Below, piece after piece: positions 40,275 to 64,000 of a DNA stretch of 64,000 nucleotides; within the stretch, counting starts at the first letter, position 1; the number at the start of each line of letters is the position of its first letter. The DNA is taken from the NCBI GenBank assembly GCA_003209655.1, contig QCPW01000005.1:62001-126000 (forward strand), written 5' to 3'. The position numbers and the translations under genes are program-made. Below the pieces are notes generated by a model. It saw only the letters and a list, made by a program, of their open reading frames with translations, was not told the origin of the DNA and searched no databases. Source of the stretch: Prochlorococcus sp. AG-442-M23 (GTDB taxonomy: Bacteria > Cyanobacteriota > Cyanobacteriia > PCC-6307 > Cyanobiaceae).

Positions 40275-40418
40275 TTAAAAAATTCCTGGTATTATCCAGC
40301 CAAATAAGCCATAATTTACAACTAATGCAAATAAACCCATCATTGCCATTCTTCCATTAGTTCTTTCAGCATTTTGCCAGTAGGTTGGTTTTGAGTTTTC
40401 CATTGTATTTGTAGTCAT
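40275..40418 (-). CDS. hli: High-light-inducible protein (Hlip)
   Basis: A 47-residue one-helix chlorophyll-binding protein. The Hlip core is AERTNGRMAMMGLFALVVNY ending FGWIIPGIF; the E..NGR.AM.G motif supplies chlorophyll and carotenoid ligands. Hlips protect photosystem II assembly and dissipate excess energy. It is nearly identical to the copy at 53977. It sits in a five- or six-gene minus-strand cluster probably transcribed from the promoter at 40972-41001. Confidence 0.9.
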   Translation of the reverse strand: MTTNTMENSKPTYWQNAERTNGRMAMMGLFALVVNYGLFGWIIPGIF

Positions 40419-40433
40419 TTTTTGAAGTAAGTT

Positions 40434-40580
40434 TTAAACGAAACCTGGAATTATTTGTCCAGTTGTTAGATATGCACCAATTGCAGCTATGAGACCAATC
40501 ATTGCAAACCTTCCGTTAAGTGTTTCTGCAACAACTTTTTCTTTTTCGATTGTTTTTGTTTTAGTGTTTGTTTCAGTCAT
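40434..40580 (-). CDS. hli: High-light-inducible protein (Hlip)
   Basis: A 48-residue Hlip: a charged N-terminus (MTETNTKTKTIEKEKVVAET) followed by LNGRFAMIGLIAAIGAYLTT and GQIIPGFV. Its C-terminal domain is almost the same as that of the fused protein at 54137-54397. It begins 17 bases after the 31-residue membrane peptide gene. Confidence 0.9.
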   Translation of the reverse strand: MTETNTKTKTIEKEKVVAETLNGRFAMIGLIAAIGAYLTTGQIIPGFV

Positions 40581-40597
40581 TTTTTTGGTAAATTGAT

Positions 40598-40693
40598 TTA
40601 GTTTTTGAAGTCTTGTAATTGCTTATAGCTATATAAGATAATTATTACAGTGAAAGAAATTACAAAAAATAGAAATTCATCTAGTGGACTCAT
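40598..40693 (-). CDS. 31-residue membrane peptide (split form of a TM-Hlip)
   Basis: MSPLDEFLFFVISFTVIIIL then YSYKQLQDFKN: one helix with a basic end. It is clearly related to the N-terminal segment MSPLLVFLVVIVFFTAILVA of the fused gene at 54137-54397, but here a stop and a new ATG separate it from the Hlip domain. It lies 48 bases downstream of the first hli of the cluster. Confidence 0.55.
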   Translation of the reverse strand: MSPLDEFLFFVISFTVIIILYSYKQLQDFKN

Positions 40694-40741
40694 AAGCTTT
40701 GACCAGCTTTTTATAGAGTTCAAGAGAGAGTGGTTCCATTT

Positions 40742-40948
40742 CTAGAAGATTCCAGGAATGATCTGACCTGTTGTTACATATGCGCCTAGCAATGCAACAA
40801 AACCGATCATTGCCCAACGACCGTTAACCTTCTCGGCATTTTGAGGATAACCGTCATATGAGACAGACTCATCGATATATGGACGAGTTTCAGAAGGGAA
40901 CATATTCTGCCTTCCACCTGATTCTGTTGTTACTTGTGAATTAGCCAT
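40742..40948 (-). CDS. hli: High-light-inducible protein with N-terminal extension
   Basis: A 68-residue Hlip. I start at ATG 40948 (MANSQVTTESGGRQNMFPSE); an in-frame upstream ATG at 40981 lies before the predicted transcription start. The extension DESVSYDGYPQNAEKVNGRW is followed by the core AMIGFVALLGAYVTTGQIIP. The strongest promoter candidate of the cluster sits just upstream. Near-duplicate at 54397-54606. Confidence 0.9.
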   Translation of the reverse strand: MANSQVTTESGGRQNMFPSETRPYIDESVSYDGYPQNAEKVNGRWAMIGFVALLGAYVTTGQIIPGIF

Positions 40949-53976: not shown

Positions 53977-54105
53977 TTAAAAAATACCTGGAACTATCCA
54001 GCCAAATAAGCCATAATTTACAACTAATACAAATAAACCCATCATTGCCATTCTTCCGTTAGTTCTTTCGGCGTTTTGCCAATAAGTTAGTTTTGAATTT
54101 TCCAT
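53977..54105 (-). CDS. hli: High-light-inducible protein (Hlip), duplicate of 40275
   Basis: A 42-residue Hlip: MENSKLTYWQNAERTNGRMA then MMGLFVLVVNYGLFGWIVPG. It differs from the 40275 copy at only a few residues and lacks its five N-terminal residues. It contains the complete pigment-binding helix. Confidence 0.9.
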   Translation of the reverse strand: MENSKLTYWQNAERTNGRMAMMGLFVLVVNYGLFGWIVPGIF

Positions 54106-54136
54106 TTTTTTGTTCGGGGATAATTTTTGATAATTT

Positions 54137-54397
54137 TTAAACGAAACCAGGAATTATTTGTCCTGTTGTTAGATATGCACCAAAAGCTGCAATTAACCCA
54201 AGCATTGCGAATCTGCCATTAAGAGTTTCAGCTAAGACTTTTTCTTTTTCGATTGTTTTAACTTTTTTGTTTAAGCTTTTCATTTGATAAGAAGATGAAT
54301 AGATTGAATTTTCTTTTTGAAATTGTTTGGTTAAATAAGCAACTAGTATGGCCGTAAAAAACACAATTACAACTAGAAATACTAAAAGAGGACTCAT
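54137..54397 (-). CDS. hli: Fused transmembrane-Hlip protein
   Basis: An 86-residue protein started at ATG 54397, which shares its first base with the stop of the preceding hli (TAATG), a translational-coupling arrangement. Residues 1-25 form a membrane helix (LLVFLVVIVFFTAILVAYL), followed by a Ser/Lys linker and an Hlip domain (VKTIEKEKVLAETLNGRFAM, then TTGQIIPGFV). In cluster 1 the same two parts are separate genes (40598 and 40434). An internal ATG (MKSLNKK) could still yield the short Hlip. Confidence 0.75.
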   Translation of the reverse strand: MSPLLVFLVVIVFFTAILVAYLTKQFQKENSIYSSSYQMKSLNKKVKTIEKEKVLAETLNGRFAMLGLIAAFGAYLTTGQIIPGFV

Positions 54398-54606
54398 TAA
54401 AAAACACCAGGAATTATATGGCCTGTAGTTGCATAAGCTCCCATTAGTGCAACTAAACCAATCATGGCCCAACGACCATTAATTTTTTCTGCGTTTTGGG
54501 GATATCCATCGTAAGAAACAGATTGATCAACATAAGGGCGAGGTTCAGTTGGAAAGATATTTTGCCTTCCTCCTGATTCTGTAGTTATGTATGAAGAATT
54601 AGTCAT
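54397..54606 (-). CDS. hli: High-light-inducible protein with N-terminal extension, duplicate of 40742
   Basis: A 69-residue Hlip (TTESGGRQNIFPTEPRPYVD, QSVSYDGYPQNAEKINGRWA, then AMIGLVALMGAYATTGHIIP in part). Its closest relative in the window is 40742-40948, with which it shares its promoter pattern. First gene of cluster 2. Confidence 0.9.
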   Translation of the reverse strand: MTNSSYITTESGGRQNIFPTEPRPYVDQSVSYDGYPQNAEKINGRWAMIGLVALMGAYATTGHIIPGVF

Positions 54607-56014: not shown

Positions 56015-56113
56015 AATAAAAAAGAGAGTCTGGGTAACTTTCTAGTATTAATTGGTTTTGATTGAGTCGGGGCGACAGGATTCGAAACTTCGACTAAGTG
56101 TTCCAAAAAACCA
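56015..56113 (-). repeat. tRNA-Pro 3'-half unit, copy B
   Basis: Plus-strand AGTCGGGGCGACAGGATTCG begins at 56065 and continues with a slightly altered T-arm and CCAAAAAA (anticodon TGG region, degraded). The tRNA-downstream flank (AATAAAAAAGAGAGTCTGGG at 56015) is shared with copies C and D. It contains a short stem followed by T residues, as expected of the parental tRNA terminator. Confidence 0.85.
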
Positions 56114-56412: not shown

Positions 56413-56676
56413 TCATTCAATAAGTTTAAGATTATAAACCACGTCAAAACAGTTGTTATCCTTATCCCATTGTTTTAATTCTGGTTGTTCGAGCATGGCT
56501 CCAAACTTTTTTAAGTCAGAACAATTCATCAGGATCATTGCTTTATATTCGTATACTTTGACGATCTCCAGCTCAGAACAAAAAACATATCCTTGTTCTT
56601 TAGCTACTTTTTTGCCAATGGCTTTAAATTCTGAAAAAGAACAATCAAATGTTGAGATAACTAATGTATTAGGCAT
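56413..56676 (-). CDS. Small dimeric alpha-beta-barrel-like protein
   Basis: An 87-residue protein with strand-helix-strand-strand-helix-strand pattern: TLVISTFDCSFSEFKAIGKK, then GYVFCSELEIVKVYEYKAMI, LKKFGAMLEQPELKQW, CFDVVYNLKLIE. This order, and SELEIVKVYEYKAMILM, resemble the DUF3764 and antibiotic-monooxygenase-like (ferredoxin-fold) small proteins. Function unknown. Preceded by the shared TTGACAGT leader. Confidence 0.6.
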   Translation of the reverse strand: MPNTLVISTFDCSFSEFKAIGKKVAKEQGYVFCSELEIVKVYEYKAMILMNCSDLKKFGAMLEQPELKQWDKDNNCFDVVYNLKLIE

Positions 56677-56690
56677 TAAAAAAAGGAGCT

Positions 56691-56720
56691 TATTGCCCCT
56701 TATTGAAAATTTACTGTCAA
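56691..56720 (-). promoter_or_regulatory. Shared promoter-like leader, instance 1
   Basis: Minus strand TTGACAGT ... CAATAAGGGGCAATAAGCTCC-type text (position 56720 down to 56685), 15-44 bases before ATG 56676. Same layout as at 57093, 59314, 60054 and 60822. Confidence 0.5.
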
Positions 56721-57140: not shown

Positions 57141-57231
57141 AATAAAAAAAGAGTCTGGGTAACTCTCCAGTATGAAATAGTTTTGATTTAGTCGGGGTGA
57201 CAGGATACCTGCCACCTAGTAATCCAAAAGC
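57141..57231 (-). repeat. tRNA-Pro 3'-half unit, copy C
   Basis: Flank AATAAAAAAAGAGTCTGGGT at 57141, TTTTGATTTAGTCGGGGTGA and CAGGATACCTGCCACC, then TCCAAAAG, whose reverse gives the anticodon loop with TGG. The flank is the closest match to copy B. In tRNA orientation AGAGT-TACCCAG-ACTCT plus T residues is a terminator hairpin. Confidence 0.85.
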
Positions 57232-59269: not shown

Positions 59270-59283
59270 GAATAAAATAAACT

Positions 59284-59315
59284 AATTGCCCCTTATTTTA
59301 GATCGACTGTCAATC
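59284..59315 (-). promoter_or_regulatory. Shared promoter-like leader, instance 3
   Basis: Minus strand TTGACAGTCGATCTAAAATA then AGGGGCAATTAG, 15-45 bases before ATG 59269. Together with instance 5 it defines the best consensus. Confidence 0.55.
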
Positions 59316-59359
59316 AAAAATAAATTTTGAAGAACTAAATCTTCAGAAAATTTAGAATT

Positions 59360-59401: not shown

Positions 59402-59500
59402 AATAAAAAGACAGGCTGGGAAACCTTTCTTTAACTTGGATTATTAGAGTCGGGGCGAAAGTATTAGAAGCTGCGACCTAGTTCTCCCAAAGCACTGGGC
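59402..59500 (-). repeat. tRNA-Pro 3'-half unit, copy D
   Basis: Flank AATAAAAAGACAGGCTGGGA, then AGAGTCGGGGCGAAAG (59446 on), a damaged T-arm, CTGCGACCTAG and TCTCCCAAAGCACTG. The reverse of the last part is the anticodon loop TTTGGGA, which identifies the parent as tRNA-Pro(TGG). It extends further into the anticodon arm than the other copies. Confidence 0.85.
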
Positions 59501-60027: not shown

Positions 60028-60052
60028 ATTATCGACCCATATTTAATTAAAG

Positions 60053-60080
60053 ATTGACAGTCGATCTAACATAGAGGGAT
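60053..60080 (+). promoter_or_regulatory. Shared promoter-like leader, instance 4
   Basis: TTGACAGTCGATCTAACATA (60054 on) then GAGGGATAAACC, 15-41 bases before ATG 60095. The first half is identical to instance 3; the second half has diverged. Confidence 0.5.
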
Positions 60081-60820: not shown

Positions 60821-60856
60821 ATTGACAGTCAATCTAAAATAAGAGGCAATTAGCTC
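60821..60856 (+). promoter_or_regulatory. Shared promoter-like leader, instance 5 (orphan)
   Basis: TTGACAGTCAATCTAAAATA (60822 on) then AGAGGCAATTAGCTCC and T-rich DNA, the best match to instance 3. No gene follows on the plus strand; the next gene converges. It appears to be left over from a lost gene. Confidence 0.5.
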
Positions 60857-60879
60857 CTTTTTGCTCTTTTTCTGTCATT

Positions 60880-61035: not shown

Positions 61036-61791
61036 TTAATACTTAATAGCAATCTGCCAAAAAGGATATTGCCCGACAGATTTTTCTCTAATTAATTGAA
61101 ATTTTCTAGAATTTATTTTGGCTACGATTCCGTCTGTTGGGTAGTTATTAAAAAGTTTTTTGTCTGTCCATTGTTTTCTGTAGACTTGAATCTGGCTTGT
61201 AAAATTACAGCTTTTATATTCTGGAATAGTAAAACCTAATTTCTTTAAATACACCAAAGAATCATGTTGATTTAATCTGCCATTAATTATCTGGAAAGAA
61301 CAAAAACTAATATGATCGCTTTCACTACAAGCTGACCTTAGATAACCTCCCGCTTGACTTTGAGAGTAAGTAGGTCTTTCATATTCTGATGGTGCGAATA
61401 GCTCTCCTCTAACTTGGAATAAACCTTGAATATTAATCTTGTTTGGAATATCTAGAACAGCTTTAATCTTTTCGGTGCAATCTTTTCCTTTTCGAGAAAT
61501 TGCTTTTACTAACTCTCCATCAATATATTGAATAGCGATAGCACAACCATCAATTTTTGGTTCAATAATTATTCTTGTATCGGGCAATAATCCTTCAATA
61601 AATTCCTCTATTTGATCTTTTGGTAGAGAAGGTAATGGCAATAATTTTTTATTAGTAAAATAATTTGCTTTTGGATTTACTCTAAATAAATTGGCTTCTA
61701 ATTGGTCGAATTGGTCATCAGTAATTAATGAAGTCCCCATTCTGTAATTATGGTCATACCATTCAATTCTTTCTTCTAAATATTTACTCAT
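61036..61791 (-). CDS. Minimal NAD-dependent DNA ligase-like protein (adenylation domain only)
   Basis: A 251-residue protein with a short Ia-like NMN-binding start (LEERIEWYDHNYRMGTSLIT, DDQFDQLEANL) and an adenylation domain: RIIIEPKIDGCAIAIQY with nucleophile lysine K79, LVKAISRKGKD, LFQVRGELFAPS, GIVAKIN. The OB-fold, zinc finger, HhH and BRCT domains of LigA (about 670 residues) are absent. Start ATG 61791 overlaps the recombinase remnant stop by ATGA. It may be a small phage/element ligase or an accessory nucleotidyltransferase. Confidence 0.8.
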   Translation of the reverse strand: MSKYLEERIEWYDHNYRMGTSLITDDQFDQLEANLFRVNPKANYFTNKKLLPLPSLPKDQIEEFIEGLLPDTRIIIEPKIDGCAIAIQYIDGELVKAISRKGKDCTEKIKAVLDIPNKINIQGLFQVRGELFAPSEYERPTYSQSQAGGYLRSACSESDHISFCSFQIINGRLNQHDSLVYLKKLGFTIPEYKSCNFTSQIQVYRKQWTDKKLFNNYPTDGIVAKINSRKFQLIREKSVGQYPFWQIAIKY

Positions 61792-62165
61792 AATTTTGCC
61801 TTATTTGTATTGTTGTATATCTCAGAAGTTCCATTTGGAATAAATTTAGAGTATTTCTGCAAGTGAACTCCTTGGGAATGACCCATTGCTTTGCAGATAT
61901 TAGCCATTGGGAACCCTTCTGCATGAGAAGCTTTCGAATATCTAAGTCTAAAGCTATATGGAACTGAAACTTCTCCAATATCTTTGGTTTCTACTCTGTA
62001 TAAGTTCCAAAGCTTATTTCTTCTTAGTTTTGTTCTAAGAGTCATAGAAGCATATTCTCCTAAAGCTGGAAGTTCTTCACCTAATTCAATTCTAGTTTGC
62101 AAGTTATAGTCCATTGCTTCTCCTTTTGCATTAACCAAATAAAGAGGTCTTAACTTTCTTGGCTT
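61788..62165 (-). pseudogene. C-terminal remnant of a tyrosine recombinase (integrase)
   Basis: Open from a stop at 62166-62168, inside the tRNA-Pro repeat unit, to TGA 61788. The catalytic end is recognisable: VPYSFRLRYSKASHAEGFPM (Arg box II), ANICKAMGHSQGVHLQKYSK (the H of GHS and the final nucleophile Y in QKYSKF). The N-terminal and core domains with Arg I are missing, cut where copy E begins. Codon-level overlap with the ligase-like gene indicates they were an operon. Confidence 0.75.
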
Positions 62166-62212
62166 TTAAGAGTCGGGGCGACAGGATTCGAACCTGCGAC
62201 TTAGTGCTAAGG
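62136..62212 (-). repeat. tRNA-Pro 3'-end unit, copy E (best conserved)
   Basis: AGTCGGGGCGACAGGATTCG at 62171-62190 then AACCTGCGAC: an undamaged acceptor and T-arm of tRNA-Pro in reverse orientation. After CTTAGTGCTAAGG the match ends, so only the 3' ~40 bases remain. The recombinase remnant abuts it on the left. Confidence 0.9.
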
Positions 62213-62352
62213 GTGGGGTAGGTCAAACAAAATTAATTATTTAAATTTTCAATAGTATATCTACTAAAACATTTCATTTTATTTTTGAATCATAAAAATT
62301 TTTCCCAACAAAAAAAATATAAGTTAAGTTTGTAAAAATGTTTTATTAAAAA

Positions 62353-63798
62353 TTGAAAATCAGCAAGAAGTTAATATTAATATTTGGATTACTTGCAGCA
62401 ATCATTTCTGTACCAAGTGCTCTTTTTTTAACTGGAACTATTGGCAATGCCAAATCCGCTGCTTATAAAAGAGCTAAAAAAATAATGAATCCTGATCTTT
62501 ATTTGACTTATAGGATTACAGAAAGGATTGTAGAGGCCAACAATATAAAAAGACCAATAAGAATAGCGGTAAGGAAAGGAGTAGATTGTTCTGGAGCACT
62601 TGGACTTGATCCATCAAGTAGTAAGTGTCAAGCTGCCCAGTTGTTGCCTGATATAGATAAATCAACAAACTTTGATATTTGGGCTTCTCAGGTAATTAAC
62701 ACTATGTCTGGTCAAGCTAATGCTTTTGCAAGTAGCGATAGTGGCGTTTTATTAGTTAATAAACCGTTATTAAAAGAACTTATGGGCCGACCTGAACAAC
62801 TAGCTTGTGTGATTTCTCATGAGTTAGCTCATATTACTCAAAACCATAATGACGAAAAAAGAAAAGCAAGAATGAAATATGATTCAATAGCTGCATCAAG
62901 AATCTCTGAAAGAATAGTTAAATTAAAAAATGCACAAGGAAGGGGTTATTTCATGGCAGCTATGATAGGAGGGCTTTCAGATAGTTACTCAGGGACTAAT
63001 ACTTCGCTTAATCAATTATCAAATCAAATCGCTTTCAATAATCTTGCATCTCAAATGCTCGCTCCACAGATAAGTGAAAAAGCAATGGAATACTCTCCAG
63101 TAATAGCTGAATCAATTAATGAAATACAAGGATTAAGTCCACAGTATATTAAGCAAGGATTTAGCTATATTGATAACTATCTTAGAGATGCGGCACTTTC
63201 GCTCACCGCTTTTGGAAGAGGTCTTGAATATGAGGCAGATTTATTAGGAACACAATATGCAGCAACCGCAGGTTTCGATGAAAAAGCTTGCTTAAAATTA
63301 TGGACAGAAACCATGCCCCATGACACTGATAAAATAGTAGCAAGATTGTTGCCACAAGGAGTTCCAGATCCAGGTAAAAAGAAACCTGAAATATTCATAA
63401 ATAAAAAAAAATCTGAAGTATTAGAGGATATAGATTGTAAAAATAAGATAAAAGTAAGAAAGGACAAAGGTCTTAAGCAAAAATGTAAATTAATTTCTAA
63501 AAAAAGAAAAGCTAAAGATAAAAAGCAAATAAGTGAACAGACTTTAGAAATACTTAGTACTCATCCAAGTGATGAGAGGAGAGCTAAATCTATAAGTGAG
63601 CACATAAAAAATAAAGAGCTATTTAATAAATTTAGAGCAACTGGAAAGAAAAATAAATTAAAAAACACTATGAGAGATTGGAGTTATGATAAAGAATCAG
63701 ATAGTCTTGTTATATCTGATATCGAAAAAGATCCTAAACTAATCGGATTAGAGGAAACTGGCACAAGTGGGATTAATATTGATAATTTTTTAGAATAG
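62353..63798 (+). CDS. M48-family zinc metalloprotease, exported
   Basis: A 481-residue protein with TTG start and N-terminal anchor (ILIFGLLAAIISVPSALFLT). The zinc site is H156-E-L-A-H160 in ISHELAHITQNH, and the third ligand is in GLEYEADLLG (E292, with D296). The C-terminal ~120 residues are very basic (KSEVLEDIDCKNKIKVRKDK), followed by the family's TLEILSTHPSDERRAKSI. It resembles BepA/Oma1-like proteases in envelope quality control, without the TPR domain. Confidence 0.9.
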   Translation: MKISKKLILIFGLLAAIISVPSALFLTGTIGNAKSAAYKRAKKIMNPDLYLTYRITERIVEANNIKRPIRIAVRKGVDCSGALGLDPSSSKCQAAQLLPDIDKSTNFDIWASQVINTMSGQANAFASSDSGVLLVNKPLLKELMGRPEQLACVISHELAHITQNHNDEKRKARMKYDSIAASRISERIVKLKNAQGRGYFMAAMIGGLSDSYSGTNTSLNQLSNQIAFNNLASQMLAPQISEKAMEYSPVIAESINEIQGLSPQYIKQGFSYIDNYLRDAALSLTAFGRGLEYEADLLGTQYAATAGFDEKACLKLWTETMPHDTDKIVARLLPQGVPDPGKKKPEIFINKKKSEVLEDIDCKNKIKVRKDKGLKQKCKLISKKRKAKDKKQISEQTLEILSTHPSDERRAKSISEHIKNKELFNKFRATGKKNKLKNTMRDWSYDKESDSLVISDIEKDPKLIGLEETGTSGINIDNFLE

Positions 63799-63812
63799 AA
63801 GTTATGTATTAA

Positions 63813-64000
63813 ATGAAAAAATTTTTAATATTCACCCTAATAATCGCATCAAATGCATTAATTTTTGAACCTTTAATTTCTAAAGAAATTTTGGAGGATA
63901 AAAATTTAATACAAAAAGTTTCATTTAATATTTGGTGGGAAGATAAATATAATGATTCCATCATCACTCTCAGAACTTATCCTGAAGATGTCAAAACAAT
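63813..64000 (+). CDS. Secreted protein of unknown function (3' end outside window)
   Basis: ATG 63813 starts a signal peptide (KKFLIFTLIIASNALIF) followed by EPLISKEILEDKNLIQKVSF and NIWWEDKYNDSIITLRTYPE. At least 62 residues; no motif recognised. It follows the M48 protease gene by 14 bases, so co-expression is likely. Confidence 0.6.
   Translation, partial: MKKFLIFTLIIASNALIFEPLISKEILEDKNLIQKVSFNIWWEDKYNDSIITLRTYPEDVKT

Follow-up and report, generated by a model that had tools for sequence, protein, structure and literature searches.

A truncated tyrosine recombinase abutting a tRNA-Pro repeat in a Prochlorococcus island as a probable relic of short-homology deletion

The last third of a tyrosine recombinase and an intact ligase-like partner gene lie, in the 64,000-nucleotide stretch of DNA analysed here (the window), on the strand opposite to that expected from the comparable loci examined. 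They adjoin a tRNA-Pro repeat with its flank, both of which accompany the neighbouring peptidase segment elsewhere. The arrangement is probably what is left of a tycheposon-like element associated with tRNA-Pro, whose integrase-ligase module was cut by a short-homology deletion; the integrase relic is most likely dead. The window comprises bases 62001-126000 of contig C5 from a 1.63-Mb genome in 27 contigs (97.8% complete), and positions below are those of the window unless a contig is named.

The integrase remnant (61788..62165, minus strand) is an open frame of 125 codons plus a stop, without internal stops, that corresponds to positions 276-402 of the 405 in the family HMM. Alignment to full-length relatives identifies it as the C-terminal third of a ~400-aa tyrosine recombinase, with the alignment beginning at residue 266-315 of the relatives (18 full-length among 20 loci) when their frames are numbered from stop to stop. 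The initial annotation had described a truncated recombinase C-terminus that is open to 62165 and abuts copy E of a tRNA-Pro repeat, and the frame, the alignment and a repeat match at 62173-62208 all agree with this description. Its alternative that homologues might naturally begin at this point does not hold, given that full-length relatives begin about 265-315 residues earlier. The six nearest matches share 46-54% identity with the tail (one of the six is itself truncated), and matches at E<=0.001 were found in 70/200 genomes of the genus, the window's own included. In a tree with 31 leaves, the nearest relatives of the tail are L043, L012 and L013 (supports 0.74 and 0.80), and its terminal branch, at 0.75, is the longest.

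As the initial annotation had read it, the tail carries family residues at the box II Arg (YxFR), at the GH of GHS and at the Tyr; its length of 126 residues in that annotation is to be corrected to 125. Neither the hairpin Lys nor Arg I (GLRPEEL) remains in the tail, as both lie upstream of the break in the alignment. The tail therefore would not be expected to recombine DNA by itself, and it does not carry the complete active site of a tyrosine recombinase (Arg I, Lys, H/YxxR, H and Tyr, which we take to be the roles of these residues in the family). The His that follows the box II Arg, invariant in 29 full-length sequences, is replaced by Leu (FRHRY to FRLRY). Of 14 columns that do not vary in the other sequences, three are broken in the tail (D to N, W to Y and H to L), whereas 27 of the 29 full-length relatives break none of them and two break one, a count that favours sequences having close relatives in the set. 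The contrast is weaker when all columns with 90% or higher conservation are counted, of which 4/22 are broken in the tail and 0-3/22 in the other sequences, with two full-length relatives at 3/22. Differences by codon position resemble those of functional genes and do not set the tail apart from them. Judged from the absent catalytic residues and the broken invariant columns, the tail is most likely a dead relic, a remnant rather than a working recombinase.

The tail alone matched no Pfam family and no PHROG. Three full-length relatives score 32.0, 27.9 and 26.7 against PF00589, so that two pass its gathering score of 27.1 and one falls just below, and one full-length integrase (L011) matches PHROG integrase profiles (best 2.7e-17). 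Relatives of the tail were absent from the phage records and viral contigs searched; likewise, the L011 integrase had no relatives in phage records at 1e-5, nor in viral contigs searched by short conserved patterns. The missing N-terminal part of the integrase was not found elsewhere in the 97.8%-complete assembly, and neither was a full-length integrase close to the family. The sole other integrase match in the assembly is a 394-aa frame on contig C3 with 29% identity.

The repeat beside the remnant (copy E; 62173..62208, minus strand) is an attachment-type partial 3' end of tRNA-Pro(TGG), with a 36-nt match that includes 1 mismatch. A 32-nt piece of it has one match in the window at <=3 mismatches, with 0 expected from 100 shuffles. 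We assign the repeat to tRNA-Pro(TGG) because L045, L046 and L049 hold intact genes for this tRNA that share its 3' part. Downstream of the repeat lies a conserved 15-nt flank (CTCTTAAAAGCCAAG; 62158..62172, minus strand), the last 5-8 nt of which double as the first codons of the integrase homology. This flank follows its consensus to 62158 and departs from it at 62157, and the same 15 nt are found exactly in 2/40 CTC-type flanks. After the CGA of the tRNA, 84 distinct 3' flanks were distinguished (40 CTC, 13 TCA, 12 TTG, 8 CCA and 11 others). Other CTC-type flanks continue with a terminator-like hairpin that the window flank does not have, and this hairpin suggests that elements may carry their own tRNA terminator with them.

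Copy E belongs to an array in the right part of contig C5 in which every repeat is on the minus strand. Within the window, the preceding repeat (59450..59485) and a further one (56067..56102) each carry 5 mismatches in 36, and a more degenerate repeat is located at about 57144-57206. Beyond the window, repeats occur at C5:126346, 137021, 138505, 139928, 141558 and 142408, and another is present on contig C24; the array probably continues across a contig break. A 54-nt stretch of the intact tRNA-Pro(TGG) gene has no match in the assembly at <=3 mismatches. Two tRNA-Pro calls made by ARAGORN in L041 are taken as partial repeats with unrelated 5' parts.

The native setting of the integrase was established from 27 full-length loci of L009-L038 (the best matches plus L038), which encode proteins of 398-447 aa and include near-identical copies from four genomes (L028-L031); L038 and its fellow relative L039 come from records named Prochlorococcus. 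In 26 of the 27 loci, a tRNA-Pro repeat closely precedes the integrase and lies on the other strand, 17-293 nt outside the 5' boundary of the open frame. Two of these 26 repeats have 8-9 mismatches in 46, and the remaining locus (L032) offers only 48 nt up to the contig end. Controls yielded no matches: the pattern read backwards gave 0 versus 40 matches in 60 loci, and the 36-nt pattern reversed gave 0 versus 49 matches in 25 loci. These comparisons of sequence indicate that the integrase family goes with tRNA-Pro repeat arrays. The check proposed in the initial annotation, namely which tRNA lies next to full-length relatives, thus returned tRNA-Pro almost throughout. That annotation had also regarded the junction as direct evidence for the recombinase type that built the array; the association of type and array is upheld by the family comparison, but the junction itself does not supply such evidence. 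Likewise, its suggestion that the parent gene spanned or adjoined the attachment site is retained for adjoining, and is not supported for spanning, as the repeats sit outside the relatives' frames.

The window shares with this family its tail identity, a ligase-like neighbour and the association with tRNA-Pro. It differs in that the tail is without the N-terminal two thirds and without its own repeat, and in that the strand relation is reversed. The repeat in the window is on the same strand as the remnant rather than upstream on the opposite strand, and is not evidently the gene's own. Integrase and/or ligase and the adjoining repeat lie on opposite strands in 14/14 longer loci that hold both (L044-L051, L121, L126, L129, L130, L132 and L133). 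Among the loci examined that carry a repeat, the window is the sole same-strand case of repeat plus tail. One of the longer loci (L047) has, besides its opposite-strand repeat, two more repeats further on in the other orientation.

The break falls in the middle of the gene and 15 nt past the tRNA end, with the tRNA part and the 15-nt flank both complete. On the other side of the repeat is an M48-type peptidase gene (62353..63798, plus strand), whose 5' flank is conserved together with copy E in two other loci. The first of these (L074) aligns at 88% over 62159-64000 and the second (L077) at 84% over 62164-64000; in each of them the usual flank, with its hairpin-like stretch, comes after the repeat. 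Homology to the peptidase-plus-repeat unit of L074 ends at 62159, and integrase homology begins at 62162-62165. The adjacency of repeat and peptidase is not universal because four further peptidase loci start to align only at 62196 (L075), 62201 (L076), 62271 (L078) and 62265 (L079). None of the six peptidase loci (L074-L079) has a family integrase or ligase at E<=0.01 / 1e-5.

A 35-nt junction pattern allowing <=3 mismatches was found in 1/266 genomes, the window's own, and was absent from the 265 others. Among the matches listed in a longer DNA search, for which two candidates per genome were scored, no other genome spans the junction, and the exact pattern was absent from the viral contigs searched. 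Further short frames occur among the matches to the tail; of the six other broken integrase copies examined (L043, L051, L121, L125, L132 and L133), none has a repeat abutting its break; the copy in L133 is broken by stops and retains the usual upstream repeat.

The partner gene (61036..61791, minus strand) encodes an intact 251-aa protein like the adenylation domain of NAD-dependent DNA ligases. The TGA stop of the remnant overlaps the ligase start codon (ATGA), and this overlap is present in the window and in 11/12 intact modules checked. A ligase-like neighbour with 62-80% identity occurs in 8 of the 27 full-length family loci. Among the best 25 ligase loci (L081-L105, the window included), a full-length family integrase is directly upstream in 11, a remnant is upstream in 3 (the window, L084 and L093), and none was detected in the available flank in 11. 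The ligase matches at E<=1e-10 in 243/266 genomes, and many of the matches listed belong to a ~249-aa class with about 61-64% identity. The pairing of integrase and ligase is recurrent, and may deserve separate study.

The same type of ligase was also observed 3' of a different, 384-aa recombinase-like protein near tRNA-Ser(TGA) at two loci (L090:1076-2230 and L131). This protein matches PF00589 weakly (E=0.088), and ligase pairing may cross integrase families. The second locus (L131; G095:C15) is an 18.4-kb contig whose two ends, each with ligase and tRNA-Ser, mirror one another, and is a probable palindromic amplification or assembly artefact.

We propose that the peptidase segment once had an integrase-ligase element as its head-to-head neighbour. 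Short matches of CCAAG type, one in the repeat flank and the other in integrase codons, would then have been joined by a deletion of one to a few kb, through which the integrase lost its initial two thirds and the repeat belonging to it, and the flank lost its terminator. The GCCAAG of the flank resembles the integrase codons at the break, which specify E/K/Q-P-R in most relatives. Flank and integrase codons share 5-7 nt at the break in 7/19 relatives and 2-3 nt in 12/19, and the overlap in the nearest tree relatives L043, L012 and L013 is 3, 5 and 5 nt, respectively. Among simulated random junctions, 0.8% share 5 nt or more and 0.06% share 7 nt or more; because the codons compared are those of relatives rather than of the parent itself, sharing of 5-7 nt is only suggestive.

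One locus offers a topology that fits this deletion model. In L047 (genome G013), an AACCAAG repeat flank on the minus strand is followed ~3.1 kb on, in the same direction, by integrase codons GAACCAAG, and a deletion between such short matches would yield the architecture of the window. The integrase of this locus (L012) belongs to the clade adjoining the tail (supports 0.80 and 0.74). Contig C6 of genome G052 likewise bears repeats in both orientations, separated by 9 kb; this genome and G013 are represented by fragmentary assemblies that are 70% and 50% complete, respectively. Among 11 single-contig genomes, 10 have repeats and 9 have two or more, with mixed orientation within one local array in 0/9, which counts against the model, and one genome (G049) has two arrays of opposite orientation about 185 kb apart. 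Deletion is the likeliest course, as inferred from other loci rather than from the pre-deletion state of this one.

Several other explanations were weighed against this deletion. The initial annotation had proposed that recombinase-driven exchange between attachment repeats cut the gene and stranded its cargo. A truncated gene that abuts a repeat, from an integrase family that normally adjoins such a repeat, speaks for this proposal, but exchange of this kind should place the junction within the repeat, whereas the window has its break in mid-gene, beyond a complete tRNA part and a complete 15 nt of flank. The strand relation of repeat and gene is furthermore the reverse of the native one, and the absence of an abutting repeat from all six other broken copies argues in the same direction. 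With the repeat also common to the peptidase side in two genomes, we consider such exchange very improbable and have rejected repeat-to-repeat recombination on grounds of strand, position and this shared repeat. Insertion at a secondary attachment site in the gene is unlikely as well: the flanks fall into several classes immediately beyond the CGA, so a crossover should fall inside the tRNA part and not in the CCAAG flank. A different proposal accepts the truncation and holds that the 108-125-aa C-terminal piece is kept for use, either carrying coupled translation of the ligase or interfering with other integrases. The 125 codons free of stops, the ATGA overlap shared with intact modules, and a putative new translation start (62112..62126, minus strand), where AAAGGAG and a spacer of five nt precede an in-frame ATG at 62114 that would open 108 codons, are consistent with such use, as are the C-terminal remnants directly before the ligase in L084 and L093. 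However, the remnant in L093 is a weak, partial match, and the loss of three invariant residues along with the longest terminal branch makes retention for use quite unlikely. Of similarly low probability, and a shade lower, is a reading of these sequences in which the mobile ligase, consisting of an adenylation domain alone, would help the incoming element to integrate or to be repaired. Selection would then have kept it after the death of the integrase, whose 3' end would survive as a translation leader for the ligase.

The main rival to deletion is an amplification chimera or assembly artefact. Had the genome been amplified from one cell, two segments might have been fused by a displaced strand that jumped between them at a short match. 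Inverted joins at short matches typify multiple displacement amplification (MDA): in an E. coli MDA study, 406/475 chimeras (85%) were inverted and 76.8% had 2 or more complementary bases, with a maximum of 21, where the segments met (PMC1855051). The window junction is much like these when seen as an inversion. The 27-contig assembly, the absence of the junction from 265 other genomes (<=3 mismatches in 35 nt), and the resemblance of L131, a contig of another genome, to an artefactual palindrome also favour an artefact. However, if the window arose by deletion within a head-to-head array, its junction is a direct join, and direct chimeras of <10 kb number 11/475 in that same study (PMC1855051). 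A fresh chimera would moreover hold functional integrase sequence, whereas the tail breaks three invariant residues, and the missing part of the integrase should then be present in the same cell, whereas it was not found in the 97.8%-complete assembly. On balance, the broken invariant columns, the longest branch and the lack of an N-terminus elsewhere favour an old, real truncation, and a chimera seems rather unlikely.

Integrases of the SSV type are split by their own attachment site, and like the window they leave an integrase fragment against a tRNA-derived repeat. An attachment site inside the gene was rejected here given the repeats 17-293 nt outside the frame in 26 relatives and a genome in which no complementary N-terminal fragment was found. 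The integrases of Prochlorococcus tycheposons and cryptic elements were reportedly treated by Hackl and colleagues in 2023. With these the window has in common a tyrosine recombinase that is located among cargo and tRNA repeats in an island flanked by tRNA, but it keeps the last third of the recombinase alone and in the wrong orientation for the array. Tycheposons are described as large cargo-carrying Prochlorococcus elements that are bordered by one of seven tRNA genes and have a tyrosine recombinase (PMC10872708). The window presents a repeat array and a recombinase remnant, while neither an intact tRNA-Pro(TGG) nor a full-length integrase close to the family was found in its assembly. They are also listed among proposed phage satellites (PMC11389934), and a distinct picocyanobacterial integrase has been described at tRNA-Phe or tRNA-Cys (PMC10187409). 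With the terms used, our literature search returned no paper on tRNA-Pro repeats in Prochlorococcus islands.

Through comparison, a defined integrase family is now tied to the tRNA-Pro repeat arrays of Prochlorococcus. The locus itself represents mostly ordinary island decay in which the ligase gene is the part that stayed intact, and it suggests a possible route by which arrays decay, with an imprecise join losing the integrase while cargo and repeats stay. A gene that abuts an attachment repeat is, alone, no evidence of site-specific recombination.

The minus-strand piece made up of ligase and tail starts right of a dispersed 42-bp terminator-like repeat (60821..60862, plus strand) that lies 3' of plus-strand cargo genes. 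Copies of this ~42-bp repeat (GACAGTCAATCTAAAATAAG...) occur at 60821-60862, 59274-59320, 56674-56720 and 60038-60078, and in several genomes the GACAGTCAATCTAAAATAAG... repeat follows island genes, resembling a shared terminator. Elsewhere in the window, similar short coding repeats that are 60-90% alike form two clusters (40275-40837 and 53977-54492) located 13.7 kb apart, which we presume may be high-light-inducible-type genes.
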